Below, piece by piece: positions 43,556-63,579 of a DNA stretch of 64,000 nt. Source of the DNA: Pseudomonas sp. S06B 330 (GTDB taxonomy: Bacteria; Pseudomonadota; Gammaproteobacteria; Pseudomonadales; Pseudomonadaceae); contig NZ_CP088149.1 of the NCBI RefSeq assembly GCF_002845275.2, forward strand, positions 2,290,501 to 2,354,500, written 5' to 3'. Each line of letters opens with the position of its first letter. Position 1 is the stretch's first letter. The notes below the pieces were generated by a model. That model was not told the DNA's origin. It did not search any database and saw only the letters and a program-made list of their open reading frames with translations. Made by a program: the position numbers and the translations under genes.

Positions 43556-44653
43556 TCAACCACGCGGTTCGCGGGTGCCAAGTACATCGCGAATGGTGTC
43601 GACCACGTTGCTGTCCTTGATCACGTCGCTCAACCACCCTTCGAGCGGCATGTTGCCCCACTTGATGGCGCGTTCGATCAGGTACGGTACCGGGCTCTGC
43701 GGCTCGCTCTGTTTGAAGAACTGGGCAATGCCGGCGAGCATGGTGAAGGCTTCGTCGCGGGTCAGCGGCGTGGTGCGCATCGGCGCTGCGGGCGCGTCCT
43801 GGACAAGGTTGGTCATCGAGGCACCTGGCGCGTGAGAAGGGGAGGACTCGGCGGCCACTTCTGGCGTTGCCGGCGCGGGTGGGTTGAGTTCGATTCCACG
43901 GTCTTTCAACAACTTCTCCGCCAATTGGCTGGCCCGCGACAAGATGTCGACGAGGGTGGCGAAGCTTGGCGCCTCGGCACCGAACAAACGGTCGATGGTC
44001 GCTTGCAACTGGCGACAGGCATTGAGGCTGTCGGCGATCTGCTGGGCCTTTTGGCGCAGGTGATCGGAGTCGCTCAGTACCACGGAACGCTGGAAGATTT
44101 CGGCGTTGATCTTGCCTTCGTCCAACGCCACCTGCATAGCCTTGGGATTCTGCAGGGCGAGGTTTTCCACGTGGCGTGATTCGTCATAGCGAAGCACACC
44201 GAAATGTTGCCCTTGGGTAATGGGCAACCCCCCGACGATGTCGGTGAGTGAGGTCTTGAGCCAGGACAGGCGCGCGCCGCGTTCATCCAGGCCTTCTTCA
44301 AGGGAGGGGTAGAGGGTGTCCCAGTAGGATTGCAGGATCTGCTCGGCCAGGTTCAGGCCGAAGGTGATGCCTTCGAAATGATAGCGCTGCGCCAGCCCTT
44401 CGTTGAGCCAGGCCACCAGCATCAGGTCCTTGCTCTGTTGGGCCAGGCCTTGGGCCGAGAGGCTGATAGTCAGGTCCCAATCGGCGGATTTGAGGTCGGT
44501 TTGCCAGTCGCCCAGGGTCAGGTAGTCCGGGTCTGCCCGGCGGGCCTCCTTGATCTGGTCGAACAAGGTGGAAAAGCTCAAGTCTTCGCCGCTCCCGTCT
44601 GCGATGGGCGCTGTCAGTTCGGCCAGCGAAAAGTCGTTGAGAAATTCAGGCAT
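43556..44653 (-). CDS. tssA: Type VI secretion protein TssA (ImpA N-terminal domain)
   Basis: A 365-residue TssA. The N-terminal ImpA_N domain is visible (DPDYLTLGDWQTDLKSADWDL, then AEQILQSYWDTLYPSLEEG). A variable proline/alanine linker (about residues 255-300) precedes a conserved C-terminal helical module (LTRDEAFTMLAGIAQFFKQSEPQSPVPYLIERAIKWG), as in the short TssA class. TssA organises baseplate and tail-tube/sheath polymerisation at the membrane complex. It is the last gene of the locus, 93 bp behind hcp, with two hairpins in the gap. Confidence 0.92.
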   Translation of the reverse strand: MPEFLNDFSLAELTAPIADGSGEDLSFSTLFDQIKEARRADPDYLTLGDWQTDLKSADWDLTISLSAQGLAQQSKDLMLVAWLNEGLAQRYHFEGITFGLNLAEQILQSYWDTLYPSLEEGLDERGARLSWLKTSLTDIVGGLPITQGQHFGVLRYDESRHVENLALQNPKAMQVALDEGKINAEIFQRSVVLSDSDHLRQKAQQIADSLNACRQLQATIDRLFGAEAPSFATLVDILSRASQLAEKLLKDRGIELNPPAPATPEVAAESSPSHAPGASMTNLVQDAPAAPMRTTPLTRDEAFTMLAGIAQFFKQSEPQSPVPYLIERAIKWGNMPLEGWLSDVIKDSNVVDTIRDVLGTREPRG

Positions 44654-44746: not shown

Positions 44747-45265
44747 TTAAGCGAACACTTTGTTGGCAGTGCGGTCCCAACCGCCGGTGACGTTGCCGCC
44801 GCCCTGGCCGTCGGCACGGCTCTGCTGAGTGTAAGTGGTCTTGATGCGGGCGAAGTTGAAGCTGATTTCTTCGATCGGCAGGTCGCTGACGGCCTTGTCT
44901 TCACCGCCCTGGTTACCGCCGGCAACGGCTTTGACCGAAGACACCACGACTTCTTCCAGGTTGATGGTCAGGTAGGTGACCTTGTCGCCGCCGGCGCGGT
45001 TGACGTTCAACTGGATCTTGGCGATGTGGGTGCCTTTGCAGCAGGCTTCGAACAGCTTGGCTGAAGCCTTGTCCACGGCCTTGCGGATGCTGAAGTCGCT
45101 CAGGGCAACACGCTCGGAGGAAGCACCGCCCGAAGAGCTGGCAGTGGCCGAGGTGGCTTGGGTAGCGCCGTACTCGTAACCCAGCACTTCGATCCAGTCC
45201 TTGTGCTTGTCGTCCAGTACTTCACCCGGGATGCCGTCGATTTGGATATATGCGTCAAATGCCAT
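44747..45265 (-). CDS. hcp: Hcp, T6SS tail-tube protein
   Basis: A 172-residue Hcp (TssD). The start MAFDAYIQIDGIPGEVLDDKHKDW and the end IKTTYTQQ...GGWDRTANKVF are characteristic. Hcp hexamers stack into the tube inside the sheath and carry small effectors. AAGGAGAG precedes ATG 45265. There is no extra C-terminal toxin domain. It is separated by 159 bp from the upstream gene and by hairpins from tssA, so it may have its own promoter. Nothing resembling vgrG follows. Confidence 0.96.
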   Translation of the reverse strand: MAFDAYIQIDGIPGEVLDDKHKDWIEVLGYEYGATQATSATASSSGGASSERVALSDFSIRKAVDKASAKLFEACCKGTHIAKIQLNVNRAGGDKVTYLTINLEEVVVSSVKAVAGGNQGGEDKAVSDLPIEEISFNFARIKTTYTQQSRADGQGGGNVTGGWDRTANKVFA

Positions 45266-45424
45266 TTTTAAACTCTCCTTTCCTACATTTAAAGGGCCGC
45301 GCTGCACGGGTGCGTCGCTCTCGGCCCTTCGTTTAACCTCGTTGACAGCTCAACAGAGGTAGCTTGCCGCCGCCCATGCCTCCTCCTGTGAGGCCCGGGC
45401 AGCCGGTTCTTTACTGACGCGGCC

Positions 45425-47920
45425 TCAGTTGAGCCCGCGCACTTCGATTTCGACCCGTCGATTGGGCTCCAGGCATTGGATCAGCTGCGCCCTGGACATG
45501 TGCATGTCGCACTTGACCAGCGGCTTGCGGCTGCCTTCGCCGAGGGCGTCCACCAGCTCGCCAGGTACCCCCTTGCCGACCAGGTAGGTGCGGATGGTCT
45601 GCGCCCGTTGCCGCGACACCTGCAGGTTGCTTTGTGGGTCGCCGAGTTGGTCGGCGTGCCCGGAAATGATGATTTTGCCGATGTTGGGGGTGTTCAACAG
45701 CTTGCTGGCGATAGCGCTCAACTGACGCTGGCCTTCGCTCTTGAGGCTCTGGAAATCGGCGCGGGCGAAGGCGAACAAGGTGTCCGACTCCAGGGTAATG
45801 GTCTCGATCGAGCGCAATGACTGCGTCAGCAGGCTGTTGATGTAATTACGCGAGCTGGATGTCAGGAAGGCGTTGTCGAGGATCCGAGGCACATCCGGTT
45901 CACGGATCTGATCGCTGTAGAAGTCGATCTGACGGCTGGCGAACAAGTAGTCCTGGCTGGCACTGGCCTGATTGTCGACAGCAGTCATGGTTTTGCCGGT
46001 TTTACGGGCTATTGCCGGGTACCAGTAGTCGGGAATTTTCGCCTTGAGGAACACCGGATCGGCTTTTTTCCGTTGGCCGGGCGACAGCATGACGTAGGTG
46101 TCCAGCGTCGCCTTGCCAAAGTCGGCGATGGACTGCGCGCGATTATCGTGAGGCAGTGCTTCGGGCTCGACGCTGTCAACACCGGTCACCGGCATCAAGT
46201 CGCGGCTGTTGCGCTGATAGACCTTGAGCGTGGTCAGCAGGTACAGCGTGCGGGTCAGGTTGTCGGCAGTCGGTTTGAGCATCACGCTTTGCAGCCAGCT
46301 GAAGTACCGGCCGCGCAGCAGTGGTTCGACGTCATGCCCTTGGTACAGGCCCAGACGAAGGCGCAGCGGCACGCCCTGATCGTGGTGCTGCTGGTAGTAA
46401 TGAGCGCTCCAGAAACGCAGGCGATCCAGGCTGTGCCAAGCGGTGTATTGGCCGCTGGTGCTGGCGTCTTGCGCTGCCGCCTCGCTGAGCTCGGCGGAGA
46501 TCTGCGCGAGGGTGCTGCTGTTGTTGTAGTACGACCAGCCCCACAGGCTGCACAGCAGTACCGCGGCCAGGCTGGCACCGCCGACCCAGGCGGCCGTGCG
46601 CCGGCGTTGACGATGGTTGCTGGTGTACAGCGCCACCAGGTGCTGGTCAGGAATGATCACCTTGCGGAACAGGCTATTGATGAACAGCGGCCCCGGCCGG
46701 CTCTGGCCACTGGCGGCCTGCGCGCCGTTTTGCAGGGCGAAGCGCTCGGTCACCCACTGGCTATGGCCGCCCAGTTGCGCCTGGTCGGCATCCAGCGCGC
46801 TGGTGAAGTAGAAACCACGCAGCAGTTCGGCGTTTTGGTAAGGGTTGGCGCGCAGCAGGCTGTCGACAAATTGCTGCAGGCGTGGCTTGAGTGCTGCCAG
46901 TTCCAGGGGGAAGCGATAGGCCGCATTGTTCTCACGGGTGACCTGGATGTCCTGCAAGGTCAGTTGCTGGCGGGCAACCTGTTGCCAGTAACCGACCAGC
47001 TCGTCCATCGCCTGGCCAAAGCGTTGCCCCCAGTCAGCCTGCTCATAGCCCTTGTGTGAAAAGGTCTTGCCCATCACTTCACCGCGCGCGCTGTCATCGA
47101 GCTGGCGATAGAACGGCGCAAAACCGGGAATCAGGTCGCACTTGGTGAACACCAGGTAGATCGGCAGGCGTACCTCGAGCAACGCACAGCTTTCCTGGAT
47201 ACGTTCGCGCAGGCGCTTGGCCAGGCGCTCCTGATCCTCTGGCGAGGCCTTGAGGATGTCGTCGATGCTGACGCTGACAATCAGGCCATTGAGCGGCCGC
47301 CGCTGACGGTGCTGACGCAGCAGTTGCAGGAAGGCACGCCACTTGCCGGCTTCTTCCGGGTTGTTCATGTAGCGTCCGGCGGTGTCCAGCAGCACCGCTT
47401 CGGAGCTGAAGAACCAATCACAGTTGCGCGTCCCGCCCAAACCGGCCACCCGTGCGCCTTCGCGCTCGGCATACGGGAAGTTGAGCCCCGACTGGTAGAT
47501 CATCGTGCTCTTGCCGGCGGCCGGTTGCCCAATTACCAGGTACCAGGGCAGGGCGTACAGTGCGTCTTTGGCCGGGGTTGCGCGCGGCTTGTTGCTGTGC
47601 AGGCGCTCCAGGCTTTGCAGCAGGCGTTCGCGTAGCAGGCTGACCTCTTCGCGGTCGGCAGGGTTGGCATTGAGCACCGCCTGGTCGGCGTCGTCACGCA
47701 GCAGCCCTTCAAGGTTGTGGTGCTGCGATACGCCGCGGTACAGCAACAGGACATAGCCTGCCGACAGCAGCAGGAACAGACCGATACCCACCAGCAGGCT
47801 GTGCAGCGAGCCGAAGCCCAGGCCCCGGCCAATGGCCCAGACGACAAAGATCGCCAGGAAAAAGCATACCCCCAGCAGGTAGGGTTGGTAGCGCAAGCAG
47901 TAGTATTTGATCTTGTTCAT
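45425..47920 (-). CDS. TssM N-terminal-like protein fused to OmpA peptidoglycan-binding domain
   Basis: An 831-residue chimera. The N-terminal about 560 residues match the IcmF/TssM cytoplasmic GTPase-like part: membrane helices near residues 14-30 and 41-61, Walker A GQPAAGKS at 131-138, Walker B-like AVLLDTAGRYM, and a third helix near 442-463. The large TssM periplasmic domain is replaced by a shorter region of about 230 residues, then an OmpA domain (about 705-831) with IIISGHADQLGDPQSNLQVSRQRA and EPNRRVEIEV. It could anchor the T6SS membrane complex to peptidoglycan, a job the TssL here cannot do. ATG 47920 overlaps the tagF stop (ATGA). Symbol withheld because tssM proper is at 48825. 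Confidence 0.9.
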   Translation of the reverse strand: MNKIKYYCLRYQPYLLGVCFFLAIFVVWAIGRGLGFGSLHSLLVGIGLFLLLSAGYVLLLYRGVSQHHNLEGLLRDDADQAVLNANPADREEVSLLRERLLQSLERLHSNKPRATPAKDALYALPWYLVIGQPAAGKSTMIYQSGLNFPYAEREGARVAGLGGTRNCDWFFSSEAVLLDTAGRYMNNPEEAGKWRAFLQLLRQHRQRRPLNGLIVSVSIDDILKASPEDQERLAKRLRERIQESCALLEVRLPIYLVFTKCDLIPGFAPFYRQLDDSARGEVMGKTFSHKGYEQADWGQRFGQAMDELVGYWQQVARQQLTLQDIQVTRENNAAYRFPLELAALKPRLQQFVDSLLRANPYQNAELLRGFYFTSALDADQAQLGGHSQWVTERFALQNGAQAASGQSRPGPLFINSLFRKVIIPDQHLVALYTSNHRQRRRTAAWVGGASLAAVLLCSLWGWSYYNNSSTLAQISAELSEAAAQDASTSGQYTAWHSLDRLRFWSAHYYQQHHDQGVPLRLRLGLYQGHDVEPLLRGRYFSWLQSVMLKPTADNLTRTLYLLTTLKVYQRNSRDLMPVTGVDSVEPEALPHDNRAQSIADFGKATLDTYVMLSPGQRKKADPVFLKAKIPDYWYPAIARKTGKTMTAVDNQASASQDYLFASRQIDFYSDQIREPDVPRILDNAFLTSSSRNYINSLLTQSLRSIETITLESDTLFAFARADFQSLKSEGQRQLSAIASKLLNTPNIGKIIISGHADQLGDPQSNLQVSRQRAQTIRTYLVGKGVPGELVDALGEGSRKPLVKCDMHMSRAQLIQCLEPNRRVEIEVRGLN

Positions 47921-48828
47921 ACAAACGTGGCATCCAGCGCGTCGACACAACGGTCGATAACGTGATCAAGGGGGCGGTCTATATCGGCGAGCTGCGCGCT
48001 GGCGTGCCGCTCGCCAGGTGGCAACAGGTCATGGTGCTGCGCGGCCTCACAGGTCCCGGTCAACACGCGGTAGGCGGTGGTGCTGTGGCGTGAAGGAAAG
48101 CAGTACAGCTTTGGGCGCAGAAAGTCGTCGGCAAGCACACTGACGGGCGGCAAATGGCCGCCATTGAGGCGGGTCAGCCAGGTCAGCCAAAGGTCGGCAG
48201 TGGGGTTTTTCAGGCCGCGTTCGGCGGGCAACGGCAAACCGATGCCGGCCTCGCAGTCGGCGTGCAGCAACGGTGCCAGGGCCTGTATTCGGGCCAGTGC
48301 CTGGTGGCTGTCGAAGGTCGGGTAGGCGCCGCTCAGTGCCGTGGCGATGTCACGCAGGCTGAAGTCCTGCAAAAACTTGGCATGCACCCGGCGGAACAGG
48401 TCGACGTCCTGTCCTTGCAGCGGCCGCAGGGCCTTGATGCGTTCGAACAACGCCGCGCTACTGCTGCCTTGCACAGCCAGGTGCAGCAGCGGTTTGATCT
48501 GCGCGCAGAACAGCTCACCGAGGGTAAAGGGGTTGACCAGCGGCTCTCCATCCTGGGGCTTGAGCAGTTGGAAGATGAAGAACGGATAACGCCGCTCGCT
48601 GGCATCTTTCGAACTGATCAAACCGCCCAGCAAGCAATTGCCGTTACGCGCACGGTAGCTGAAGAAACACACCGGCAGGTGCTCGAACAGCGTCGGCCAG
48701 TCGTCGCGATGACGCATGGCCGCCAGCGCGGCCTGCAACCAGGCGTCGAACTCGCAGACCTCATCCGCCGCACCATGCAGGCTGACGAAGTCCGCGCTCG
48801 CCGGGAGCTTGCCGAAGCAACCGATCAC
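47917..48828 (-). CDS. tagF: TagF-type T6SS accessory/repressor protein
   Basis: A 303-residue protein with the TagF (DUF2094) N-terminal domain: GCFGKLPASADFVSLHG near the start, then FDAWLQAALAAM. In P. aeruginosa TagF holds T6SS in check after translation, working with the Fha/PpkA pathway; no kinase, phosphatase or Fha gene is seen here. The GTG start overlaps the tssM stop as GTGA, and its own stop overlaps the TssM-OmpA start. Length beyond the about 160-residue core gives a C-terminal extension of uncertain role. Confidence 0.9.
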   Translation of the reverse strand: MIGCFGKLPASADFVSLHGAADEVCEFDAWLQAALAAMRHRDDWPTLFEHLPVCFFSYRARNGNCLLGGLISSKDASERRYPFFIFQLLKPQDGEPLVNPFTLGELFCAQIKPLLHLAVQGSSSAALFERIKALRPLQGQDVDLFRRVHAKFLQDFSLRDIATALSGAYPTFDSHQALARIQALAPLLHADCEAGIGLPLPAERGLKNPTADLWLTWLTRLNGGHLPPVSVLADDFLRPKLYCFPSRHSTTAYRVLTGTCEAAQHHDLLPPGERHASAQLADIDRPLDHVIDRCVDALDATFV

Positions 48829-51800
48829 TGCGCCGTCCTGCCAGCGTTGAGCGCGCTGAGTGCCTTGACGTCGCCCAGGTCAGTCAGTTTCACCCCGCCG
48901 AAGTTACGTACCACCAGGCTCACCGGGCCGCTGGCGGTATTCCAGCTAAAGCGCTGCTGGATGCCATCGAGGTCGGCGACGCGGGCACTTTCGTTCATGC
49001 GCAACAGGCCCCAGCGACCGGGGAAGTCGAACACGGTGATGCGCGCGCCGGTCAGGGTGACGACGTCCAGGCGTGCGCCTGGTGTGGCGGTGGTCATTGG
49101 CCAGGAGAAGCGGCTCCAGCTGCTGCGGCCGTTACGGTAGTGCTGCTGTTGGCCGTCGAGGGTAAAGACAATGTCGGTGAACTGCGCTGAAGGCTCAAGC
49201 ATGATCTCGAAGCCGTTGTCGCGGTCCGACAGGCTGGCAATCACCTGGCCCACGGAGCTGGCTTTGTCGATGCTGTTGATCATGTTCGGGTTGACCAGCG
49301 CACTGCTTTTGGCGCCGCTGCTCATGCCCAGGCCTTCACCGCCTGACAGGTTGCCGATTTCGTTGCGCTTGAAGGTTGGCAGCAGCCCCGACTCGGGGTC
49401 GACGAAGCGCTGCAGGTCTTTGATCGAGGCTTCATTGCGGCTGGCGGTAGAGATCGGATAGCGGTGGGCCATGACCTGCTCCCAGGGCTTGGCGATCTGC
49501 TGCGCCCAGGCCTTGGCGATCTGCGCGCCTGCCGGGTCACGCAGGGTTTCCCAGGCGAACTGGATCGGCAGGCTGAACAACCCCTGCAGCGAGCGCGACA
49601 AGCCACCCTGGCTGGTGTCGACGCTGGTCTCGACATAGTTGCGCACGTTGGTCACTTCGCTCGGCTGGCCTTCGAGGGTCTCGCTGATCAGCTGCTTGCT
49701 GCTCTTGCCGACGTCCTGCGAGCGCTGGATATTGTTCATCCGTACCTTGAGCTTGCGCAGGGCGGCCAGGTAGCGGTCCATGATGGTGCTGTCGGCGCCT
49801 TCGGCATTGTGCTCGGCGAACACCCGCGCCACCGGCTCAAAGCGCTTGGCCAGGCTACCGTCGTCCACCGCAGGCAGCGCCGCAGTGAGGGTTTCGGGCA
49901 AGGGGGTGTTGTCACCGAACAAGCCGGTGAGCTTGCTCCACGACCCGTCCTTGCTCTCGGTGCCCGCTTGCGTTGTTTGCCGAGGGGCAGGGAGGTCCCA
50001 TTGGGTGTTGTCGTTGACCGCGCTGAGCAGGACCTTCACGGGCGAGTTCTGTACATCGCTGAGCAGTGACAGTTGCTGGGTGGCATTGGCCAGGTCAGCG
50101 AAATGACGCACGCCGACGCTGCCGACCAGGGTGTACCAGGCCTGGGTGTAGTCGCGCTTGTAGCGCGCCATGAAATCACGAATGAAGTTGGCCTTCTGCA
50201 CGATGCTGTCACCGCCTTCGCCATCGAGGACCCAGTCCGATTCGTTACGCAGGTTGCCGGCCACCAGCTTGATCAGCTCAGGTTTGACGAACGACTCCCA
50301 GCCCTGGCGGGTGAAGATCGCCGGTACGGCTTCGGAGGCATACAGCAAGGAGCGGCCAGGCATCGGCACCAGGTCGTTGAGGGTCAAGGCCGGGAACTGG
50401 CGGCTCGACTCCAGTTGCAGGCGCAGGTATTCACGGTCGACCAGCGAGCTGGAAATCATGAACGACTTCAGGCTTTGGCGGGTTTCACTGATCAGTTGCT
50501 CGTTGCGTGGCAGGGACGGCGCCTGGCCTTGCTTGAGCAAGTGCACGTACACCGCTGCGTTCTGTTCGATGACGTCGCTGCTGACGGCTGCGCTGCCGTG
50601 GGTCGATGCGGTCCAGGCCTGAGGCAGCGTCGAGGCGACGAATACCGGTTCCGGATGGGTTTTCGGTTCGGTCAGCATCAGGTACAGCTTCAGGGTGTTG
50701 TAAGCGTCGATGATCGACGCCACTTGCTGTTCATCCAGGCGTCCGAGCATTTCCTCAGACAGTGACAAGCCGCCGGTGGTAGCGGACAGCTCCGCCGCAT
50801 CGCTGGCGGTTGCCTTGTTCAACGGGGCGACGTAGGCGGCAGCCCGCGTCTTGTCCAAGGCCTGCTTGGCCTTGGCGTTCACTTGGGTTTTGAGTTTGCT
50901 GGCGGCGGTACTTTTGCCCGTCGCGGTCGGCGCAAAATCCAACGGTTGGTTCATGCTTTGGGCAAAGCTGTTGAAGGCGCGCATCTGCACCTGCAAGCGC
51001 AGGGTGATCGGCTCCAGCGCCTGGCTGCGCAGGTGCTGCAGGTAGGCATTTTGCGTGACAGCGTAAACCGCCTCACCGCGATACAAGCCGGCACCCAGCT
51101 GCAGCGGTACGCCCTTGAGACGATGGTTGTCGATCGCCGCCATCTGTTGGCGCAGGATTTCCAGGCCTTGGCCGGCGGCCAGCAATTGCTCGCGGTCGGG
51201 TGACTGCTGCAGTTCGGCCAGTTGCTGTTGCAAGCCGGCCAGCCATTGACGGTTGTTGACGAACGAAAGGCTCTGCCAGCCAATAAAGGCGATGCCCGCG
51301 GCGGCGGCCAGGCCAATCAGCACCGGGCTGAACCCTTGCTTGCGGCCCAGACGCGACTGGTACAGGGTCAAGTCGCGGTCAGGGAAGATCACCCGGCGGA
51401 AGGTGTCGGTAATGAAGTAACTGCGGTTGCTGGCGGGCTTGTCGCCCACTTCAGCGTGAACAGGCTCCTCAGCGGCCGCTTGCAGGGCAAAGGCTTCGGC
51501 GATGTCGTCTTCATACACCTGGCTCAACTGCCGCTCGGTCTGCAGCGCACTGGTGAAGTACAGACCGCGCAGCAACAACGGGGTAGCGCCCTGGCGGCCA
51601 TTGGCGAAATGCTCGAGGAACTGCTCAAGTACCCCGGAGAGTTCGGCAAAATACTGGGGGAAGTGCAGCAGTGTGCTGTCGGCATCCGGGCCAAGGGCAA
51701 TCATCTGCGCGTCGACATGCTGGCGGATGTGGTTGTTGAGGTTGTTCAGCCGGGTGGTGAGGACATTGTGCAGGCCGTTATTACGGATTTCCGAGAGGCC

Positions 51801-52640
51801 GAAGGTCATCCCAAGCGGCTGCTGACGTTGGTGCAGGTCCAGGCCGTCGAAGGCTTGTTGAAAACCGGGCAACTGGTCGGTCTTGCTCAGCATCAGGTAG
51901 ACCGGAGGATTGGCGTCCAGACACTCGGCGTACTCTTCGACGCGTGCCACCAGTTGGGCAGCCAGTTTCTCGCGCTCATCGGTGCTCGCGGCGAGCAGCT
52001 CGGGCAGGCTCACCACCAGCACCAGGCCGTTGATTGCGGCTTTTCCGCGTTGCTTTCTGAGGGTGCGCAGGAACGCCGCGAACTCGCTGGCCGACTGGTC
52101 ATCGTGCAGGTAACGGCCGGCGGTATCGATCATCACCGCGTCAGCGCTGAAGTACCAGTCGCAGTGCTGAGTACCGCTGTCACCTTCATTGCCGGTGGCG
52201 ACGCTGGCGGAAAGCCCCGAGTGGGTCAACAGCGAGGTCTTGCCCGCTGCCGACATGCCAACCACCAGGTACCAGGGCAGGTCCGACAGCGCCGCCGAAC
52301 CCCCACCGCCAGCAGAACGGTCGGTGCGCAGCATGGCGATGGCATGCTTGAGACGTTCACGCAGCACCTGCTGGTCGCGAAAACCGCCGGTGGCACTCCA
52401 CGAGCGATCGGCTTCTTTGTGCAGCAGGTTTTCCAGGTTGTGCTCGGCGCGGATACGCTGGTACTGGCGCAATACAATGATCAGCAGGAAGCAGGCGCTG
52501 ACGATGGCCATCGCTTCCAATAGATGCATAGCCAGCCACGGCCACTGAGGCGCAAGCAACCAGCAGGCCAGCAGGCTTGCCAGCCACAGCAGCGGCACGA
52601 GAAACCAGAAACTCTTCAACAAACGCAGTAATGTCTTCAT
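48825..52640 (-). CDS. tssM: T6SS membrane-complex protein TssM (IcmF)
   Basis: A 1271-residue inner-membrane protein of usual TssM length. Two N-terminal helices (residues about 11-30 and 36-57) and a third (LIGLAAAAGIAFIGWQSL, near residue 440) are visible. The cytoplasmic GTPase-like domain between them keeps Walker A GMSAAGKT at 128-135 and VMIDTAGRYL. The long periplasmic part ends in the beta-rich TssM C-terminal domain that contacts TssJ (FDFPGRWGLLRM). With TssL and TssJ it builds the envelope-spanning channel. It starts 30 bases after the tssL stop and is GTGA-coupled to tagF. Confidence 0.95.
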   Translation of the reverse strand: MKTLLRLLKSFWFLVPLLWLASLLACWLLAPQWPWLAMHLLEAMAIVSACFLLIIVLRQYQRIRAEHNLENLLHKEADRSWSATGGFRDQQVLRERLKHAIAMLRTDRSAGGGGSAALSDLPWYLVVGMSAAGKTSLLTHSGLSASVATGNEGDSGTQHCDWYFSADAVMIDTAGRYLHDDQSASEFAAFLRTLRKQRGKAAINGLVLVVSLPELLAASTDEREKLAAQLVARVEEYAECLDANPPVYLMLSKTDQLPGFQQAFDGLDLHQRQQPLGMTFGLSEIRNNGLHNVLTTRLNNLNNHIRQHVDAQMIALGPDADSTLLHFPQYFAELSGVLEQFLEHFANGRQGATPLLLRGLYFTSALQTERQLSQVYEDDIAEAFALQAAAEEPVHAEVGDKPASNRSYFITDTFRRVIFPDRDLTLYQSRLGRKQGFSPVLIGLAAAAGIAFIGWQSLSFVNNRQWLAGLQQQLAELQQSPDREQLLAAGQGLEILRQQMAAIDNHRLKGVPLQLGAGLYRGEAVYAVTQNAYLQHLRSQALEPITLRLQVQMRAFNSFAQSMNQPLDFAPTATGKSTAASKLKTQVNAKAKQALDKTRAAAYVAPLNKATASDAAELSATTGGLSLSEEMLGRLDEQQVASIIDAYNTLKLYLMLTEPKTHPEPVFVASTLPQAWTASTHGSAAVSSDVIEQNAAVYVHLLKQGQAPSLPRNEQLISETRQSLKSFMISSSLVDREYLRLQLESSRQFPALTLNDLVPMPGRSLLYASEAVPAIFTRQGWESFVKPELIKLVAGNLRNESDWVLDGEGGDSIVQKANFIRDFMARYKRDYTQAWYTLVGSVGVRHFADLANATQQLSLLSDVQNSPVKVLLSAVNDNTQWDLPAPRQTTQAGTESKDGSWSKLTGLFGDNTPLPETLTAALPAVDDGSLAKRFEPVARVFAEHNAEGADSTIMDRYLAALRKLKVRMNNIQRSQDVGKSSKQLISETLEGQPSEVTNVRNYVETSVDTSQGGLSRSLQGLFSLPIQFAWETLRDPAGAQIAKAWAQQIAKPWEQVMAHRYPISTASRNEASIKDLQRFVDPESGLLPTFKRNEIGNLSGGEGLGMSSGAKSSALVNPNMINSIDKASSVGQVIASLSDRDNGFEIMLEPSAQFTDIVFTLDGQQQHYRNGRSSWSRFSWPMTTATPGARLDVVTLTGARITVFDFPGRWGLLRMNESARVADLDGIQQRFSWNTASGPVSLVVRNFGGVKLTDLGDVKALSALNAGRTAQ

Positions 52641-52670: not shown

Positions 52671-53384
52671 TCAGGCACTGAACAGCTGGCTGATGTGTTC
52701 GGACAGTGCGGCGACGTCCTTGTCCAGCAACCAGTCGAGCGTCAGATAGACAGCGACGCAGACCAGCGCGATCAACGCCAGGTACACCCACACCGGCACT
52801 TCGTGGCGGAGCATGTGCGAGACCTGGTCGGGCAATGCCCAGTCGGGCGACAGCGCCTTGGGTGGCTTGCGGTAGCGGGCGATGTCCTGGCCCAGGGTAT
52901 TGGCCAGGTAACGCAGCTGGTCCTTCTGGCCGAGGCTGAATTTGCCTTCGAAGCCCAGGGCCAGGCACAGGTGATAGACCTCCAGCACATCGAGGTTGTG
53001 CTTGACGTCGGCACGCAGCGAATCGATTTTCTCGAAGAAGCCTTCACCGGCCAGGTGCACACCGAAGTAGCGGAACTGCAGCGGCTGCAACTCGAAGTGC
53101 TGGCGCAGTTCGTTATCGCCTGAACGCAGCACGCTTTCATCGAGAAAGGCGCACAGCGCGTACTGCGTATCCTTGACCTGCTCGACGCTGTAGTTGGCCG
53201 CGCGGGCATCGCGCTCCAGGTCGGTGAAGAAGCGCTCGACACTGCTCTCAAAGGCCTTGATCGAGGTCACTTGGCGGCCACGGCGAACAATCAGCGCCAT
53301 GCTGATGAAGTCTTGTACCAGGTCTTTGAGGCCCGGCTTGTCGTTGGCGGCCGTCACGGCGCCCTGCATTACGGCTTCAGTCAT
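52671..53384 (-). CDS. tssL: T6SS membrane-complex protein TssL (DotU/IcmH), short form
   Basis: A 237-residue TssL. The cytoplasmic helical domain has QVKDTQYALCAFLDESVL and AGEGFFEKIDSLR; one C-terminal membrane helix (VPVWVYLALIALVCVAVYLTLDW, about residues 196-218) follows with only a short tail. There is no OmpA/peptidoglycan-binding extension, so anchoring must come from another protein, for which the TssM-OmpA chimera downstream is the obvious candidate. The ATG overlaps the tssK stop (ATGA). Confidence 0.95.
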   Translation of the reverse strand: MTEAVMQGAVTAANDKPGLKDLVQDFISMALIVRRGRQVTSIKAFESSVERFFTDLERDARAANYSVEQVKDTQYALCAFLDESVLRSGDNELRQHFELQPLQFRYFGVHLAGEGFFEKIDSLRADVKHNLDVLEVYHLCLALGFEGKFSLGQKDQLRYLANTLGQDIARYRKPPKALSPDWALPDQVSHMLRHEVPVWVYLALIALVCVAVYLTLDWLLDKDVAALSEHISQLFSA

Positions 53385-54724
53385 TTGAGCACCGCCATCA
53401 GTTCAAGCTTGAGGTTGGTAAAGGCGCTGGGCGCGTAGAAACAGATGGTCTGGGCATTCATCATGCGTTCATACACCAGGCCATGTGGCTCGATGGCGAA
53501 GTACTGATTGTCCAGGCGCACCGGGATCGCATTGGGCAGGCGCGTCGAGTGGTTGAGGGTGACACCGGGCATAGCGCTGTTGACCACCACTTCGATGTCT
53601 TCGGGCGAGCCGACCTTGAAGGCGCGCGGCACCAGCTCCAGCAGGCTGGCGCCGGGCATGTCGGCGTGTACCGAAATGTAGAAATCGGCTTCAGCCAGGC
53701 GCGGGTCCTGCAGCTGGCCCTGCCAGTACGAGGGTTTGGTCTGGTTCAACTTGATGACGATGCACTGGTTGGGCACGACGTTGTCGAGCATTACCCGGAT
53801 CATCTCGTCGAGCTTGACCAGTGAGGCCGCCGGGTCGTGATGGTCGTACTCGGGAAGGTCATGGAGCTGGGTGTCGAGGGTAAAGGTCAGCAGGCCACCG
53901 GCCAGGTCGGCGAGGAACAGGTAGAGGCGCTCGGGGTGCAGGCGCGGGTGGGCCAGCAAGTGGGCCAACTGCGGGTAGGCGCGGTTGACGGTGTTGAGCA
54001 GCCAGAACAGGGTGACATCGCTGGAACCGAATTCGGCAATCTGGTCGGCACGTTCGCGACGACGTCCTGACAGGGCCTTGCTCTTGGCGTGCAGCGCGCC
54101 GAGCAGACGTTTGCCCATGCCCACCAAGGTGTCGTGGCTGCCCAGGTGCAGGGTCGGGTGAACAAAGTGCGGGTCGAGGTTGAAACCACCCATGTTATTG
54201 CGCGACAGCCTGGCGATCGGGCAATAGCTGTAGCCATCGAGGTTATCGCCGTCGACTAGCATCACCACGTTCAGGCGCAGGCTGGTGATTTCGTTTTCCA
54301 GGTCGCCTTCGTTGAGGTCCGGCAAGGTGTCGAACTGCTTGCGAAAGCGCCGGGCACTTTTCTGTTCCTGGCCGTCTTCGACGTAGTTCAGGCCGAACGG
54401 CTCGGGCAGCTTCAGCGCGGCGTAGACCTTCAGGTCATTGCCTTTGAGCAAGTCCTTGAGGTCACGGGCTGCGGGCAGCGGGTCGTGCTGGGGCGCATCG
54501 AACAGGCTGCCGTCCGGGAACACCAGTTTCAGGCGCTTGAGCTGCAAGGTACCGTTGGCCAACGCATCCTCGTCCACCTGCAAGGCCTGCACGCCCCAAT
54601 GAAAGGGCGTGCTGCGCAGCGTCGCCTCAGCCAACTGGTGCTGATGGAACTCGTCCTGGTACTGGAAATGCTGGGGCAGCAGGAACATGCCTTCCGACCA
54701 CATCACCCGGCTCTGCTTGCTCAT
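53381..54724 (-). CDS. tssK: T6SS baseplate protein TssK
   Basis: A 447-residue TssK, of normal length. The conserved start VMWSEGMFLLPQHFQYQDEFHQ is obvious. TssK trimers connect the TssFG baseplate wedge to the TssLM membrane complex and bind with phage-receptor-like domains. Both ends overlap neighbours by ATGA with tssJ and tssL, so translation is coupled through the membrane-complex genes. Confidence 0.96.
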   Translation of the reverse strand: MSKQSRVMWSEGMFLLPQHFQYQDEFHQHQLAEATLRSTPFHWGVQALQVDEDALANGTLQLKRLKLVFPDGSLFDAPQHDPLPAARDLKDLLKGNDLKVYAALKLPEPFGLNYVEDGQEQKSARRFRKQFDTLPDLNEGDLENEITSLRLNVVMLVDGDNLDGYSYCPIARLSRNNMGGFNLDPHFVHPTLHLGSHDTLVGMGKRLLGALHAKSKALSGRRRERADQIAEFGSSDVTLFWLLNTVNRAYPQLAHLLAHPRLHPERLYLFLADLAGGLLTFTLDTQLHDLPEYDHHDPAASLVKLDEMIRVMLDNVVPNQCIVIKLNQTKPSYWQGQLQDPRLAEADFYISVHADMPGASLLELVPRAFKVGSPEDIEVVVNSAMPGVTLNHSTRLPNAIPVRLDNQYFAIEPHGLVYERMMNAQTICFYAPSAFTNLKLELMAVLK

Positions 54725-55440
54725 TTAACGCTTTCCACTAAAGAGTTGAAGGTTGAATCCATGGCGTTTTGCGCGGACTGCCCGGCGGTATCTTCGGCTT
54801 TGTCGAGCAGGGCGCCCTGGACTTTGTCGGTCCAGGTGTTCTGCCCAGATGCGTCCGCCTTTTGCTGGGCGGCGGTTAACTGCTCGACAGTCGGCGGCTT
54901 GCTCAACACATCAACGCCGCGCAGGGCGGTGATGTCGGTCTGGTCGACAAAAATCCGCAAACCGTCGGAGGAGAACCAGATACCGTCCTTGCGCAGCGAG
55001 TCGGCGTCGAAGGCGACTTTCCAGCGGCCGTCGTCATCGACTCGGAAGAACGCTGCCACACCGACATACCGCGCGCTCTTGCTCAGCGGCCACTGGTCGA
55101 TCTGACCAATACCCGGCAATAGGGTGATTTCGCGACTTTCCACCAGGGTGCTGCCGAGGGCCTTCTTCGGGTCGTCCCACAGGGTGTCGGCGTCGATGGT
55201 GGTGAAACGCTCAAGACTGGTCAGCTGGTACACGCGCATCACCACCGACAACGGCGAGCCGTTGGCGTCGGGGTTGAGCTGATTGCCGCCGTCGGAGGTG
55301 AGGATGACTTTCTCGCTGTCGGCGAGCATGTCGGCAGCCCAGCTGTCGTCCATGCGCTTGCCGATGCGGTCAGTGACGCCACAGCCGGCGAGCACCAGCA
55401 GCATTGCCACTGCGCTCAGGCGTTTGATCTGCGTCGGCAT
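54721..55440 (-). CDS. tssJ: T6SS outer-membrane lipoprotein TssJ with C-terminal extension
   Basis: A 239-residue lipoprotein if started at ATG 55440; ATG 55473 is in frame but gives an unusually long signal. The lipobox is LVLAGC (Cys near residue 20). The core (VVMRVYQL, then EITLLPGIGQIDQWPLSKSARYVGVAAFF) is the transthyretin-like TssJ fold that meets the TssM C-terminus. TssJ is usually about 160-180 residues; here 60 or so extra residues rich in Ala, Gln and charged residues follow (PTVEQLTAAQQKADASGQNT), likely helical. Confidence 0.92.
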   Translation of the reverse strand: MPTQIKRLSAVAMLLVLAGCGVTDRIGKRMDDSWAADMLADSEKVILTSDGGNQLNPDANGSPLSVVMRVYQLTSLERFTTIDADTLWDDPKKALGSTLVESREITLLPGIGQIDQWPLSKSARYVGVAAFFRVDDDGRWKVAFDADSLRKDGIWFSSDGLRIFVDQTDITALRGVDVLSKPPTVEQLTAAQQKADASGQNTWTDKVQGALLDKAEDTAGQSAQNAMDSTFNSLVESVK

Positions 55441-55496
55441 GGCCAGCCGCTTCCCTGTTTGTCTGTGTTCCATGGTGTTTACCTGTAGGTACTCGC

Positions 55497-58100
55497 TCAG
55501 GTCAGGCAATAGGCGAAATCGCCATCGCTGCCCAGTTCGATCGTCAGACGCTCGATCGGGCTGTCTTGGGCCATGCGCTCCAGTACTCGCTGGGCGAGTT
55601 CCGGCATCAGGGTTCTGGACAGAATGTTGTCGATGTTGCGTGCACCGCTGTCGACTTCGGTGCAGCGCGCCGCGATGGCTTTGATCAGGGCCTGGTCGTA
55701 GCTCAGTTCGGCCTGGTGATTGCGTTCGAAGCGTTTGCGGATGCGCTCGAGCTTCAACGCGACGATGCGTTCGAGGATGATGTCCTGCACCGGATAGAAC
55801 GGCACAATGCTCAAACGCCCGAGAAACGCCGGCTTGAACACCTGGTTCAGCTCATCGCGCAGGCCCTCGACGATGGCTTCGGGTGTCGGCGCGTGCTCGA
55901 CATTCAGGCACGCCTGCATGATCCGCTCGGTACCGGTGTTGGAGGTGAGGATGATCACCGTGTTGCGGAAGTTGATCTCGCGGCCTTCGCCATCGTCCAG
56001 CACGCCTTTGTCGAAGACCTGGAAGAACAGTTCGAGCACATCCGGGTGGGCTTTTTCCACCTCGTCGAGCAACACCACGCTGTAAGGCTTGCGGCGTACC
56101 GCTTCGGTCAGCACGCCGCCTTCACCGTAACCGACATAGCCGGGTGGCGAGCCCTTGAGGCTCGAAACGGTGTGCGCTTCCTGGTATTCGGACATGTTGA
56201 TGGTGATCAGGTTGCGCTCACCGCCATACAGGGTGTCGGCCAGGGCCAGCGCGGTTTCGGTCTTGCCGACGCCGCTGGGGCCCAGCAACAGGAATACGCC
56301 AATCGGTTTGTTCGGGTCCTCCATGCGTGCGCGGGAAATCTTGATGCGCTTGCCGATCTCGTGCAGGGCGTGGTCCTGGCCCAGTACCCGTTCGCCGAGC
56401 AAGGCCGGCAGGCGCTGTACGGTGTCGATTTCATCACGTAGCATCTTGCCCAGCGGGATGCCGGTCCAGCCGCTGATCACCTGAGCAATGGCGCTGCCAT
56501 CGACCAGCGCATGCACCAGCGGTTGGTCGCCTTGCACACGGCTCAGCTCTTCACGCAGCGCGGCGATTTCGTTGGCATCGGGCGATTCGCCTGGCGAGGC
56601 GTCGAGGGCCTTGAGGCGCTCGACCAGCGCCAGCTCCTGCTGCCATTGCTGCTCCAGGCGCGCACACTGTTGCTGCTCGACCTGCAGGGCTTCCTGCAGC
56701 GCGGCCAAGCGGCGTGCGTGGTCGTGGCCTTTACCGGTTTCCTGCTCCAATACGGCAATTTCTGCCTGCAGGTTGTCGATCTGGCGTTGGCAGTCTTCCA
56801 GCGCGCCGGGCTGCGAGGATTGCGCCAGGGCGATGCGCGCACAGGCGGTATCGAGCACGCTGACCGCCTTGTCCGGCAACTGGCGGCCAGTGATGTAGCG
56901 GTTGGACAGACGCACCGCCTGCACCAGGGCTTCGTCCATCACCGCGACCTTGTGGTGCTCCTGCATTTTGCCGAGCAGACCGCGGAGCATATAGATAGCT
57001 TTATCTTCGTCTGGCTCTTCGACTTTGACGACCTGAAAGCGGCGGGCCAGGGCGGCGTCCTTCTCGAAGTACTTTTTGTACTCGGCCCAGGTGGTCGCCG
57101 CGATGGTGCGCAGCTCACCGCGGGCCAGGGCTGGCTTGAGCAGGTTGGCGGCGTCGTTCTGCCCGGCCTGGCCACCTGAGCCGATCAGGGTGTGGGCTTC
57201 GTCGATAAACAAAATGATCGGGTGCAGGCTGCGTTTGACCTCTTCGATCACCGACTTGAGGCGGTTCTCGAACTCACCTTTGACCCCGGCACCGGCCTGC
57301 AACAGCCCCAGGTCCAGGGTATGCAGGGCAACATGCTTGAGCACCGACGGCACATCACCTTGGGCGATGCGCAGGGCCAGCCCTTCGACGACGGCGGTTT
57401 TGCCGACGCCGGCTTCACCGGTGAGGATCGGGTTGTTCTGGCGGCGGCGGGTCAGGATATCGACCATCTGCCGTACCTCGAACTCGCGGCCCAGAACCGG
57501 GTCGATGCGACCTTCGCGGGCACTCTGGGTCAGGTTGATGGTGTACTGGTCAAGGGCCGGGGTTTTGCCGTTGCTTTTGCTGGCCGTCGCGACTGCTGCC
57601 GCTGGGCTTGTCAGCGGGCTGGCGAGCTTCGACTCGGCGCTGCCTTCGACCAGGGCGGCGAGGTTCAGGCGCAGGTCATCCGCGTTGATTTTCTCCAGCT
57701 CCGGCGCCGAGGCGATGACCACCCGGCGCAGCTCGGCGTCATCGAGCAACGCCTGCAGCAGATGAGCGGTGCGGATCTGCCCCTGGCCGAACTCGATCGA
57801 GGCCAGTACCCAGGCCTGTTCAATCATCCGGGTGATATGCGGTGACAGTGCCGGGGTGCGGGTGTTGCCTTTCTTGAAGGTCCCCAGGGCCGTGACCAGC
57901 TGTGCCTGCAGGCGCTCGGCGACCACATCGTAATGGCGCAGGATCGCCGGCAAGTCGTTGTCGCTGCTGTCGAGCAACTGCAACAACAGGTGTTCGACTT
58001 CGACGTCGTAATGCTGCTCCGACAGACACAGGGCCGCCGCGCTTTCAGTGGCCGTGCGGCTGGTTTCATTCAGCTTGGCGAACAGAGACTTCAGGTTCAC
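55497..58100 (-). CDS. tssH: T6SS sheath-recycling ATPase TssH/ClpV
   Basis: An 867-residue AAA+ unfoldase of the ClpV class. An N-terminal Clp repeat domain is followed by AAA1 (Walker A GEAGVGKT near residue 225, Walker B ILFIDEAHTLIG), a coiled middle domain (about residues 410-530), and AAA2 (Walker A GPSGVGKT near 605, Walker B VVLLDEVEKAHPD). It pulls contracted TssBC sheath apart for reuse. The GTG start overlaps the tssG stop (GTGA). The gap to tssJ is about 55 bases. Confidence 0.96.
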   Translation of the reverse strand: MNLKSLFAKLNETSRTATESAAALCLSEQHYDVEVEHLLLQLLDSSDNDLPAILRHYDVVAERLQAQLVTALGTFKKGNTRTPALSPHITRMIEQAWVLASIEFGQGQIRTAHLLQALLDDAELRRVVIASAPELEKINADDLRLNLAALVEGSAESKLASPLTSPAAAVATASKSNGKTPALDQYTINLTQSAREGRIDPVLGREFEVRQMVDILTRRRQNNPILTGEAGVGKTAVVEGLALRIAQGDVPSVLKHVALHTLDLGLLQAGAGVKGEFENRLKSVIEEVKRSLHPIILFIDEAHTLIGSGGQAGQNDAANLLKPALARGELRTIAATTWAEYKKYFEKDAALARRFQVVKVEEPDEDKAIYMLRGLLGKMQEHHKVAVMDEALVQAVRLSNRYITGRQLPDKAVSVLDTACARIALAQSSQPGALEDCQRQIDNLQAEIAVLEQETGKGHDHARRLAALQEALQVEQQQCARLEQQWQQELALVERLKALDASPGESPDANEIAALREELSRVQGDQPLVHALVDGSAIAQVISGWTGIPLGKMLRDEIDTVQRLPALLGERVLGQDHALHEIGKRIKISRARMEDPNKPIGVFLLLGPSGVGKTETALALADTLYGGERNLITINMSEYQEAHTVSSLKGSPPGYVGYGEGGVLTEAVRRKPYSVVLLDEVEKAHPDVLELFFQVFDKGVLDDGEGREINFRNTVIILTSNTGTERIMQACLNVEHAPTPEAIVEGLRDELNQVFKPAFLGRLSIVPFYPVQDIILERIVALKLERIRKRFERNHQAELSYDQALIKAIAARCTEVDSGARNIDNILSRTLMPELAQRVLERMAQDSPIERLTIELGSDGDFAYCLT

Positions 58101-59167
58101 AGGGCGACCCCATCAAAAGGAATTTGGAAAACGGCGCAACGCGAAGGCTCGACGTCGACACCGGGGCGTTTGAGCCAGCCCTGCCAGCCCAACGAAACAT
58201 TGCCGCCACGGCCCAGACGGGCGGCCGGAACGGCGTCGGCTTTAAGCCGTGGAGCGATCTGGAAATCCAGCTCGGCACCGACATAAAAACGCACCAGCTC
58301 GACCAGCCGGCAGTAGTCCGCGGTGCCTGGCTGGAAACGTTGATAATCCGCCAGCGCCAGCGGCCCCAGCTCGATCCGTACACACGACTGATAGTCCCAG
58401 ACCCGGTTACCGGCCACGGCGCTTTGTCCCAGGCAGGCGTTCTTGCGTCCCAGCTGGGTGCACTGCGAGGCGTCGAGCTTGAGCCAACGCCCGGCAAACG
58501 GCTTGATCTTGAACGGCAGGGAAAAATAGAAGCTGAGCATCACTTCCAGGTTCAGCGCGTTGCGTGGCTTCTGGCTGAACAGGCCGCTGAAGTAACTGAA
58601 CAGCTCGCGGCGCAGCGGCGACTGACGGCGTTCGAACTTCTGCCGCTGCGCCTCAGGCCCCAGGCCCACCAGATTGAGCAGGTAGCGGTCAAAGCCCGAG
58701 GTACCGTTGCGCTCGTGCTCGATGTAGAACTTGTACTTTTGCCAGGCCTCGTAAAACAGCGTGGTCATGCGGTGGGAAAAGATGTCGAGAAACGCATGGG
58801 CGGCGTCGTCGCGGTACTGAATGTGGCGTTCCAGCAACAGCTCGGTGTATGGGCGTGGCAACACCCCCGAAGGCCCGACCAGGCCCATGAAGGTGACCTG
58901 GACCTCCGACAGCGGCAGGCCGGTAGGCGAGACCTTGCCTTCACGCTCGAAATGCAGGTCGCTGACCTCGCTGGCGGGAAAATTCAGCGACAGCTGCGAG
59001 CGGAACCGCAACGGGTCCTCGTGCGGTCGGGTGGCCAGGTCCATGCGCCCGGTTCTGCTGTAGTGCAGGCGGAGCAAACGCACCAACTGAAAAAATTCGA
59101 ATCGGTGCGGCTCGGCCCTTGCCTGGTCAATCAGACCAGGGGCTGATCGCCGGTTCGCGCGGGCCAT
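58097..59167 (-). CDS. tssG: T6SS baseplate protein TssG
   Basis: A 356-residue TssG. Family signatures are FEFFQLVRLLR near residue 23, LNFPASEVSDLHFE, and the central VTFMGLVGPSGVLPRPYTELLLER. With TssF and TssE it forms the wedge of the baseplate. Its start overlaps the tssF 3' end by 37 bases and its stop overlaps tssH by 4, indicating coupled translation. Confidence 0.95.
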   Translation of the reverse strand: MARANRRSAPGLIDQARAEPHRFEFFQLVRLLRLHYSRTGRMDLATRPHEDPLRFRSQLSLNFPASEVSDLHFEREGKVSPTGLPLSEVQVTFMGLVGPSGVLPRPYTELLLERHIQYRDDAAHAFLDIFSHRMTTLFYEAWQKYKFYIEHERNGTSGFDRYLLNLVGLGPEAQRQKFERRQSPLRRELFSYFSGLFSQKPRNALNLEVMLSFYFSLPFKIKPFAGRWLKLDASQCTQLGRKNACLGQSAVAGNRVWDYQSCVRIELGPLALADYQRFQPGTADYCRLVELVRFYVGAELDFQIAPRLKADAVPAARLGRGGNVSLGWQGWLKRPGVDVEPSRCAVFQIPFDGVAL

Positions 59168-60951: not shown

Positions 60952-61433
60952 CAGTTGAGGTTCTGCACTTTGTATTCCTGGGTGTTGACCTGCAGCACCG
61001 CATCAAACGAGACGTGGCGGCTGATGTCCTGCAGACGCAGTACCGCGTCTACCCGGAAGGTCAACATGCGATGGCCGGTTTGCTGGGCCAGTAGCTGCAC
61101 ACGAACGCTGCGAAAGCGCCGGTCGCCGGTGGTAATGGCCTTTTCCAGCTGGCGTTGGATCAACGCCCGGTCCTGCGGGTCGAGTACGCTCTTGCTGATG
61201 AAGTCGGGCATGCCGTAATCAAGGATGGTGCCGTTGAGCTGGGGGAAACCCTCCAACTCGTTGGCGACCAGGGACTGGCGCGTGTTGACCAGAATCTCCA
61301 GGTCGCGAACGATGCTGGCCTTGTAGTCGGCCAGCGAACACGAGCGCTGCGCAGACGCTTCCACCGATTGAAACGGACGGTCGTCCAGCAATCGGTCCAG
61401 CAGCGAAGGCAACAGCCGGTGTGGGTTACTCAT
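60951..61433 (-). CDS. tssE: T6SS baseplate protein TssE (gp25-like)
   Basis: A 160-residue TssE, related to phage T4 gp25. Visible features are LLDRLLDD near the start, SIVRDLEILVNTRQS, the YGMPDF signature (GTILDYGMPDFISK), and the end RVQLLAQQTGHRMLTFRVDAVL. It starts sheath assembly on the baseplate. It lies 26 bases after the tssC stop. Confidence 0.95.
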   Translation of the reverse strand: MSNPHRLLPSLLDRLLDDRPFQSVEASAQRSCSLADYKASIVRDLEILVNTRQSLVANELEGFPQLNGTILDYGMPDFISKSVLDPQDRALIQRQLEKAITTGDRRFRSVRVQLLAQQTGHRMLTFRVDAVLRLQDISRHVSFDAVLQVNTQEYKVQNLN

Positions 61434-63510: not shown

Positions 63511-63579
63511 GGTGATCTCCTGTGCGAGCAATTCGCTGCAAATCGTTTGCGTAGCGGTCTTTACGATTGACCGGACGCG

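Follow-up and report, generated by a model that had tools for sequence, protein, structure and literature searches.

The analysed window, a 64,000-nucleotide stretch of the Pseudomonas sp. S06B 330 genome, carries a T6SS gene cluster whose genes all lie on one strand, in the order tssB-C-E-F-G-H-J-K-L-M-tagF-tagP-hcp-tssA. The host genome is a single contig of 5.64 Mb, and a VgrG gene is found 3.2 kb past the window end. The features of the cluster, in the order of the genes on that strand, are:

62977..63531, minus strand: tssB
61460..62962, minus strand: tssC
60951..61433, minus strand: tssE
59131..60951, minus strand: tssF
58097..59167, minus strand: tssG
55497..58100, minus strand: tssH (ClpV), by profile matches
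54721..55509, minus strand: tssJ, by profile matches
53381..54724, minus strand: tssK, by profile matches
52671..53384, minus strand: tssL, short form, 237 aa, DotU only, without an OmpA domain
48825..52640, minus strand: tssM, full-length, 1271 aa, with Walker A, IcmF_helical and IcmF_C; PDB 6ixh (TssM) matched at residues 645-1238
47917..48828, minus strand: tagF, 303 aa, TagF_N 77.8 bits, TIGR03373 106.9 bits; 4-nt overlaps with both tagP and tssM
45425..47920, minus strand: tagP, TssM-like N-terminal half and porin-type OmpA domain (about residues 706-831)
44747..45307, minus strand: hcp (tssD), 117 nt after tagP
43556..44653, minus strand: tssA, 93 nt after hcp

The tagP product has 831 aa, and in the ORF analysis of the window its start overlaps the end of tagF by 4 nt; the frame given in the ORF list is longer, 841 aa, and begins at a TTG. 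The protein matches the NCBIfam TssM model TIGR03348 at 428.3 bits (cut-off 388), Pfam IcmF-related_N at residues 189-445 (245.8 bits), Pfam IcmF-related at residues 498-658, where only positions 4-125 of the 308 in the profile are covered, and Pfam OmpA (PF00691) at residues 725-806 (50.4 bits, cut-off 27.2). A Walker A motif, GQPAAGKS, starts at residue 131, with DTAGR at 179 and TKCD, similar to the guanine motif, at 259. The layout is thus three membrane helices, the P-loop domain, the first periplasmic helical part, and then the OmpA domain. The profile search found no match in TagP to IcmF_C or IcmF_helical, both of which occur in the full TssM of the same cluster, and none to DotU. These profile and motif matches bear out the earlier note, which had described a TssM-like protein of this length with an intact P-loop and a C-terminal OmpA domain. 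The full TssM that it also saw in the locus is encoded two genes upstream of tagP, and the TssL, with a hydrophobic stretch at about residues 192-216, has no OmpA domain, so that here, as it had proposed, the OmpA domain is carried by a TssM-derived protein where TssL has none. The same three Pfam domains were found in all 145 proteins among the matches listed (the best 120 of each of two lists), and therefore the fusion is not a chance one. Confidence in the predicted structure is moderate outside the OmpA domain (mean pLDDT 68.4, pTM 0.43), and the fold searches returned for this part no PDB match among the matches listed, the rows in question belonging to the OmpA domain alone.

The gene at 45425-47920 is tagP of a P. 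putida K1-like T6SS, an ordinary and well-kept member of a type that has already been described. TagP, or TagP1, is known from the K1-T6SS (group 4B) of P. putida (PMC5363822); the same description is found in PMC10433429, where the identification was made in silico, and PMC5813230 refers to '(TagL/TagP)' as TssM-like proteins with peptidoglycan-binding domains. The novelty that the earlier note saw in the TssM-OmpA arrangement does not hold, since the arrangement is the TagP of these three papers and of PMC8253398, as far as the available portions of all four go; the last of them, published in 2021, states there that data on TagP are unavailable. Literature searches found no experiments on TagP among the matches listed. 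The name reportedly comes from a 2010 paper. As far as the available part of the source goes, it is also borne by an unrelated PAAR protein of Acinetobacter, and many TagP proteins are labelled simply TssM in the NCBI source.

The protein of the window and TagP1 of P. putida K1 are both TssM derivatives with an OmpA domain in place of the TssM C-terminus, encoded between tagF and hcp. Gene order in the two clusters is the same and the gaps are nearly equal, 119 bp (tagP1-hcp1) and 95 bp (hcp1-tssA1) in the available part of PMC9993120 versus 117 and 93 nt here. We found no feature that distinguishes the two, the comparison being made through the published order and spacing and through P0145, a protein named from P. 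putida to which TagP is 71% identical. The neighbouring classes fit less well. The C-terminal TssJ-binding IcmF_C of a full TssM is absent from TagP and present in the product of 48825-52640; DotU followed by OmpA in one protein, as in an evolved TssL, is found neither in TssL nor in TagP; and TagL, with its own type of OmpA domain, is encoded beside tssL before hcp, unlike tagP, which comes after tagF and has an OmpA domain of the porin type.

In the genus sample, 12 of 119 genomes encode a protein matching the whole or nearly the whole of the 395-residue C-terminal half of TagP. The class sample of 369 genomes gave 10 matches at 1e-18, full-length in two (the own genome and G320) and to the OmpA domain alone in the others; among 54 genomes of the order of G320, no further TagP was found at E 1e-25. 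A scan of named genomes yielded at least 310 stretches confirmed by tblastn, and the best 80 of these (at least 310) are the TagP loci surveyed. They belong to Pseudomonas, Salinicola, Kushneria, Chromohalobacter, Halomonas, Billgrantia, Larsenimonas, Marinobacter, Marinobacterium, Terasakiispira, Arhodomonas and other genera. The genes tssJ, K, L, M, tagF, tagP, hcp and tssA are all present in that order in 78 of the 80 loci, which were found via TagP itself and cannot show how often such clusters lost tagP. Of the eight, only tagP, hcp and tssA occur within 10 kb in L091; genes are broken in L097, where tagP is split and no tssJ lies in 7.4 kb upstream; and L031 has all eight, with tssL, tssM and tagF in pieces.

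The nucleotide-binding motifs are conserved throughout these loci. Among the 79 TagP frames longer than 700 aa, 78 have Walker A (69 of them as GQPAAGKS), with DTAGR in 79/79 and [ST]KxD in 77/79. The TssM of TagP clusters has Walker A in 78/78, compared with 12/15 for the TssM of clusters with an OmpA-bearing TssL and 16/23 for the TssM frames of other loci, and both P-loops, that of TagP and that of TssM, are kept in 76 of the 77 loci where both frames were comparable. Retention of the P-loop in TagP fits putative nucleotide binding and says no more than that; nucleotide hydrolysis by an active anchor, as the earlier note envisaged, would go beyond it. One could also regard tagP as a decaying tssM duplicate with a chance fusion, given that TagP is truncated relative to TssM and that the gene is split in L097. 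Conservation of TagP already contradicts this: 79 of the 80 loci have a frame longer than 700 aa, the motifs are retained, and in the tree described below the TagP stem is shorter than that of the partner TssM (0.56 versus 1.27 changes per site). We consider decay extremely improbable.

The wall-binding part is equally constant. A peptidoglycan-contact motif was found in TagP of 80/80 loci, the sole frame without it being the N-terminal piece of the split L097 gene. Residues D757, N765, S769, R772 and A773, invariant in 40 aligned TagP proteins, have the spacing of D486, N494, S498, R501 and A502 of EAEC TagL. According to the portion of the published work available, N494, L497, S498, R501 and A502 of TagL are needed for wall binding, and D486 is among the diaminopimelate contacts; the L497 position is filled by Val768 in TagP.

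The survey turned the idea of exclusivity between OmpA anchors into a pattern that can be counted. Of the 80 TagP loci, 79 contain a TssL frame, and a profile able to detect OmpA on long TssL finds the domain in 0/79; since TagP clusters form one lineage, these 79 loci are not independent cases. Least certain is L066, whose TssL match lies inside an 817-aa stop-to-stop frame, also without an OmpA match; L078 has an additional 272-aa frame with OmpA. The TssL closest to TagP has an open frame of 237-249 aa in G320 and in the 12 genus-sample genomes that carry TagP. For comparison we used 60 other DotU loci of the genus, a hand-picked, non-random set of stretches of 8.5 to 14.5 kb. OmpA is carried by TssL in 15 of them (frames 422-513 aa), a separate OmpA protein of 527-683 aa stands beside TssL at the TagL place in 10, and in the remaining 35 the stretch shows no OmpA domain. 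Two kinds of OmpA anchor in one stretch were seen in 0/60, and a TagP or TagL frame beside an evolved TssL in 0/15. Evolved TssL proteins, such as TssL1 in the H1-T6SS of P. aeruginosa, resemble TagP in placing OmpA on an inner-membrane subunit and differ in that the carrier is TssL. The 35 loci without OmpA mean that a short TssL does not require TagP and that an OmpA anchor is not present in every cluster. Among the three TagN-type clusters considered below, TssL is visible in one (G289, a 278-aa frame) and has no OmpA domain there.

At the genome level the anchors mix. One of the 12 TagP genomes (G068) has an OmpA-bearing TssL elsewhere (L104, frame >400 aa), and G037, G038 and G065 have TagL clusters elsewhere (L139, L141 and L144) in addition to TagP. 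Free co-occurrence with an OmpA-bearing TssL, which the earlier note named as a refutation of its idea, was thus not seen within clusters; some mixing is seen between clusters of one genome. The counts support exclusivity of TagP and other OmpA anchors within a cluster.

Homology between TagP and TssM spans about residues 16-560 of TagP, including the P-loop, and with the TssM of three TagN-type clusters it reaches about residue 690; TagP lacks the IcmF_helical and IcmF_C regions, the TssJ-binding end of TssM. For phylogenetic analysis of the shared N-terminal part, 88 rows were prepared and 14 dropped for shortness or weak coverage; the first tree used 59 of the remaining 74, and later trees, after further thinning, 64 and 45 rows. 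In the maximum-likelihood tree of 45 rows and 534 columns, with midpoint roots for drawing only, TagP (13 rows, 100/99), the TssM of the same clusters (13 rows, 100/100) and the TssM of TagN-type clusters (3 rows, 100/100) form separate groups, which together split from 16 other TssM at 100/99. The best tree joins TagP with own-cluster TssM at 87/86, below the starred level, and the alternative topology, with TagP sister to TagN-cluster TssM, is not rejected (p-AU 0.199). A profile of the TagP N-terminal part scores 447-478 bits against TagN-cluster TssM, aligned up to model position 690-694, that is, the OmpA junction. Against own-cluster TssM it scores 223-332 bits (median 304, n=25) and against the TssM of other clusters 20-321 bits (median 258, n=38), so that by profile score own-cluster TssM is not set apart from the latter. 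Within the TagP and TssM clades the same groups recur: Pseudomonas with P. orientalis outermost, Halomonas with Billgrantia, and Arhodomonas with a Chromohalobacter-Marinobacter set. This correspondence fits joint inheritance after one putative duplication.

The OmpA domain has a different affinity. Among NCBIfam models it scores 100.8 bits with porin OmpA and 46.1 with the TssL form, both below their cut-offs, and its best PDB matches are OmpA porins at 39-42% identity (2mqe, 2.7e-22), the TagL peptidoglycan-binding domain 7bba reaching only 5.1e-4. A Cys pair precedes PNRRVEIE at the C-terminus in 80/80 loci, as in E. coli OmpA. Capture of the domain from TagN was also considered and dropped, because OmpA porins match best and the Cys pair is absent in three TagN-like proteins.

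We propose, with a probability of about 0.75, that TagP is the wall anchor of the K1-like T6SS, a TssM duplicate in the TssJLM complex whose OmpA domain sits on peptidoglycan. The two N-terminal helices, the cytoplasmic P-loop domain, the third helix and the first periplasmic helical segment would place TagP in the complex, and the C-terminal OmpA domain would hold the complex to peptidoglycan through its diaminopimelate pocket, an anchorage on which secretion may depend. Because TagP lacks the TssJ-binding end, it would supplement TssM and not replace it. The duplication may have occurred in a lineage that also gave the own-cluster TssM and the TssM of TagN-type clusters, and the duplicate would then have lost the TssM C-terminus and gained a domain of the OmpA-porin type.

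Anchoring has a sharper form, not an alternative to it, in which TagP takes the place of some TssM protomers in one mixed ring, an arrangement that the earlier note called conceivable. Contact with TssJ and the outer membrane would then be divided from contact with the wall, and assembly would be coordinated through the nucleotide states of the two P-loops. TssM homology along residues about 16-560, the two P-loops kept together in 76/77 loci and the inheritance of TagP with TssM in corresponding groupings of both clades would agree with such a ring, but the branches between TagP and its own TssM are long (0.56 and 1.27) and a common interface is not assured; we regard it as possible but doubtful.

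The main warning against an anchor role comes from TagN. TagN, known from Acinetobacter and Burkholderia T6SS-1, is a peptidoglycan-binding accessory protein with an OmpA domain and the same position after tssM-tagF as TagP (the published Acinetobacter order being tssM, tagF, tagN), but unlike TagP it is small (frames of 274-283 aa here) and has no TssM part. In the available portion of the Acinetobacter work, Hcp secretion by tagN mutants equals or exceeds the wild type, and TagN is dispensable. TagP might likewise be an accessory stabiliser or tuner with little effect on secretion, and the 35 of 60 hand-picked loci without an OmpA domain would agree with that. On the other hand, the whole gene set stands in order in 78/80 loci, albeit loci found by TagP, with the P-loop and the peptidoglycan motif conserved, and mutations in the peptidoglycan motif of EAEC TagL abolish function according to the part of PMC8253398 available. 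A dispensable TagP therefore appears unlikely to us, and wall anchoring remains the preferred reading.

Another anchor similar to TagP in layout is TagL of EAEC Sci-1 and some Pseudomonas clusters, which likewise has membrane helices, a cytoplasmic part, a third helix and a periplasmic OmpA domain; it differs in length (527-683 aa) and in its place beside tssL before hcp, tagP coming after tagF. The best PDB hits of the TagL OmpA domain are 7rjj, 5m38 and 7bba; in the L139 protein, the only one of 10 tested, the EAEC TagL peptidoglycan-binding domain entries 5m38 and 7bba matched at 3e-46 and 4e-42. The domain scores best with the YiaD type (92.4), followed by the TssL form (73.9) and porin OmpA (44.3). 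Given these different domain types by score, the OmpA domains of TagP and TagL were probably captured separately.

Ahead of the OmpA domain, the profile of TssM from TagP clusters matches TagL residues 416-569 in 9 of 10 frames (domain E 1e-8 to 6e-5), and the TagP profile matches about 442-549 with weaker single-domain values of 4e-5 to 1.5. In profile-profile comparison this stretch gave probabilities of 96-98% with TagP-cluster TssM, mixed TssM and TagP, and 73% with the TssM of other clusters, the latter only 10.9% with a first, shallower TagL alignment; soluble T6SS proteins and TssL as controls gave at most 7.3%. Block shuffles reached 92% in one set, so that HH-suite probability alone is no safe guide here. 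Scores were set against 40 block shuffles (pieces of 15 columns kept) and reversed TagL. TagL scored 109 with TagP-cluster TssM (shuffles: mean 48, sd 6, max 65), 87 with mixed TssM (mean 44, sd 5, max 56), 52 with the TssM of other clusters (mean 33, sd 4, max 44) and 87 with TagP (mean 42, sd 5, max 57). All four exceed all 40 shuffles and the reversed control (25-28). Judged from these comparisons, TagL shares the segment from TM3 into the periplasm with TssM. The part of TagL before TM3 is by itself not significant (probability 0.2 to 9.9%), the TagL model is poor (pLDDT 55.3, pTM 0.35), and in that model the cytoplasmic part resembles the TssM P-loop domain in matching strand and helix order alone; homology is therefore claimed only for a stretch that starts where the cytoplasmic part ends, includes TM3 and extends over the first periplasmic segment. 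In the L139 protein the sequence at the P-loop position is VLVCGDGLSGLFG, which lacks GK[ST], and three other TagL sequences are alike. No IcmF domain over cut-off was found in four TagL by Pfam, or by NCBIfam among the best 25 rows.

A TagL query gave no match in 369 class genomes at E 1e-22. An N-terminal TagL query against 398 phylum genomes at E 1e-4 retrieved 11, nine of which have TagL-like frames of 566-673 aa; in the other two (L168 and L169) the match is TssM at the TM3 region, at about 1e-5. In the available portions of PMC3213119 and PMC3426401, TagL is presented simply as a protein of the inner membrane, and literature searches found no paper on TagL-TssM homology among the matches listed. 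The link is not wholly new, since the sentence in the available part of PMC5813230 groups TagL with TagP as TssM-like.

We tentatively suggest that TagP and TagL are both 'half-TssM' wall anchors, which would have kept the membrane part and the inner part of TssM and swapped its outer-membrane arm for a separately gained wall-binding domain, of porin type in TagP and of another type in TagL. The nucleotide site would survive in TagP and have disappeared from TagL, and both proteins would stand among the TssM protomers of one ring. If this is true, T6SS membrane complexes would be hetero-oligomers, with contact to the outer membrane and contact to the wall shared out between paralogs. The trees and the TagL comparison together offer a testable account of the origin of T6SS wall anchors, by duplication of TssM and capture of OmpA domains, and the interest of tagP lies in this likely common TssM ancestry.

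A TKCD motif distinguishes the TssM-like protein with an OmpA domain, TagP (831 aa), from the full-length TssM encoded in the same cluster, being present in 74 of 79 TagP frames from related loci, whereas none of the 78 partner TssM proteins contains it. This motif is similar to the guanine-specificity motif of GTPases. The two proteins compared are encoded in the window as follows:

45425-47920, minus strand, TagP
48825-52640, minus strand, partner TssM

The TssM proteins of three clusters of the TagN type (L171, L172, and L173) are nearer to TagP than is its companion TssM by profile score, the tree fixing no branching order.

Within the window, two further features lie beside the T6SS operon:

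40371-42590, downstream of the operon, TonB-dependent siderophore receptor
63580-63969, upstream of tssB, 129-aa frame

The latter frame had no NCBIfam matches and by position corresponds to the first accessory gene of the P. putida K1-T6SS operon, named tagX1/tagB1 in the literature. The whole source genome contains eight VgrG genes above the family cut-off. Its second T6SS (L120) encodes TssL and TssM frames of 300 and 1189 aa, respectively, and no OmpA domain was found in the stretch fetched for this locus.

Some TagP loci are partial or fragmented. The locus from Pseudomonas cerasi (L091) is a partial cluster, in which tagP, hcp, and tssA are present and tssJ, tssK, tssL, tssM, and tagF are absent within 10 kb. 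In Salinicola tamaricis (L031) tssL, tssM, and tagF are each fragmented, as are tssL, tssM, and tagP in Pseudomonas sp. TH10 (L097).

Among 60 hand-picked T6SS loci of the Pseudomonas sample, no OmpA domain was found within the fetched stretch in 35 (L112-L136, L145, L147-L154, and L158). One locus (L107), from a genome with 9% contamination, has adjoining TssL frames, a short one of 246 aa and another of 428 aa with an OmpA domain. TagL frames occur in L137-L144, L146, and L155 (e.g. L139:7660-9378). The segment from TM3 into the periplasmic part is common to TagL and TssM/TagP, and the Walker A motif is absent from the TagL sequences inspected. Judging from sequence, TagL is possibly a second wall anchor of TssM descent.
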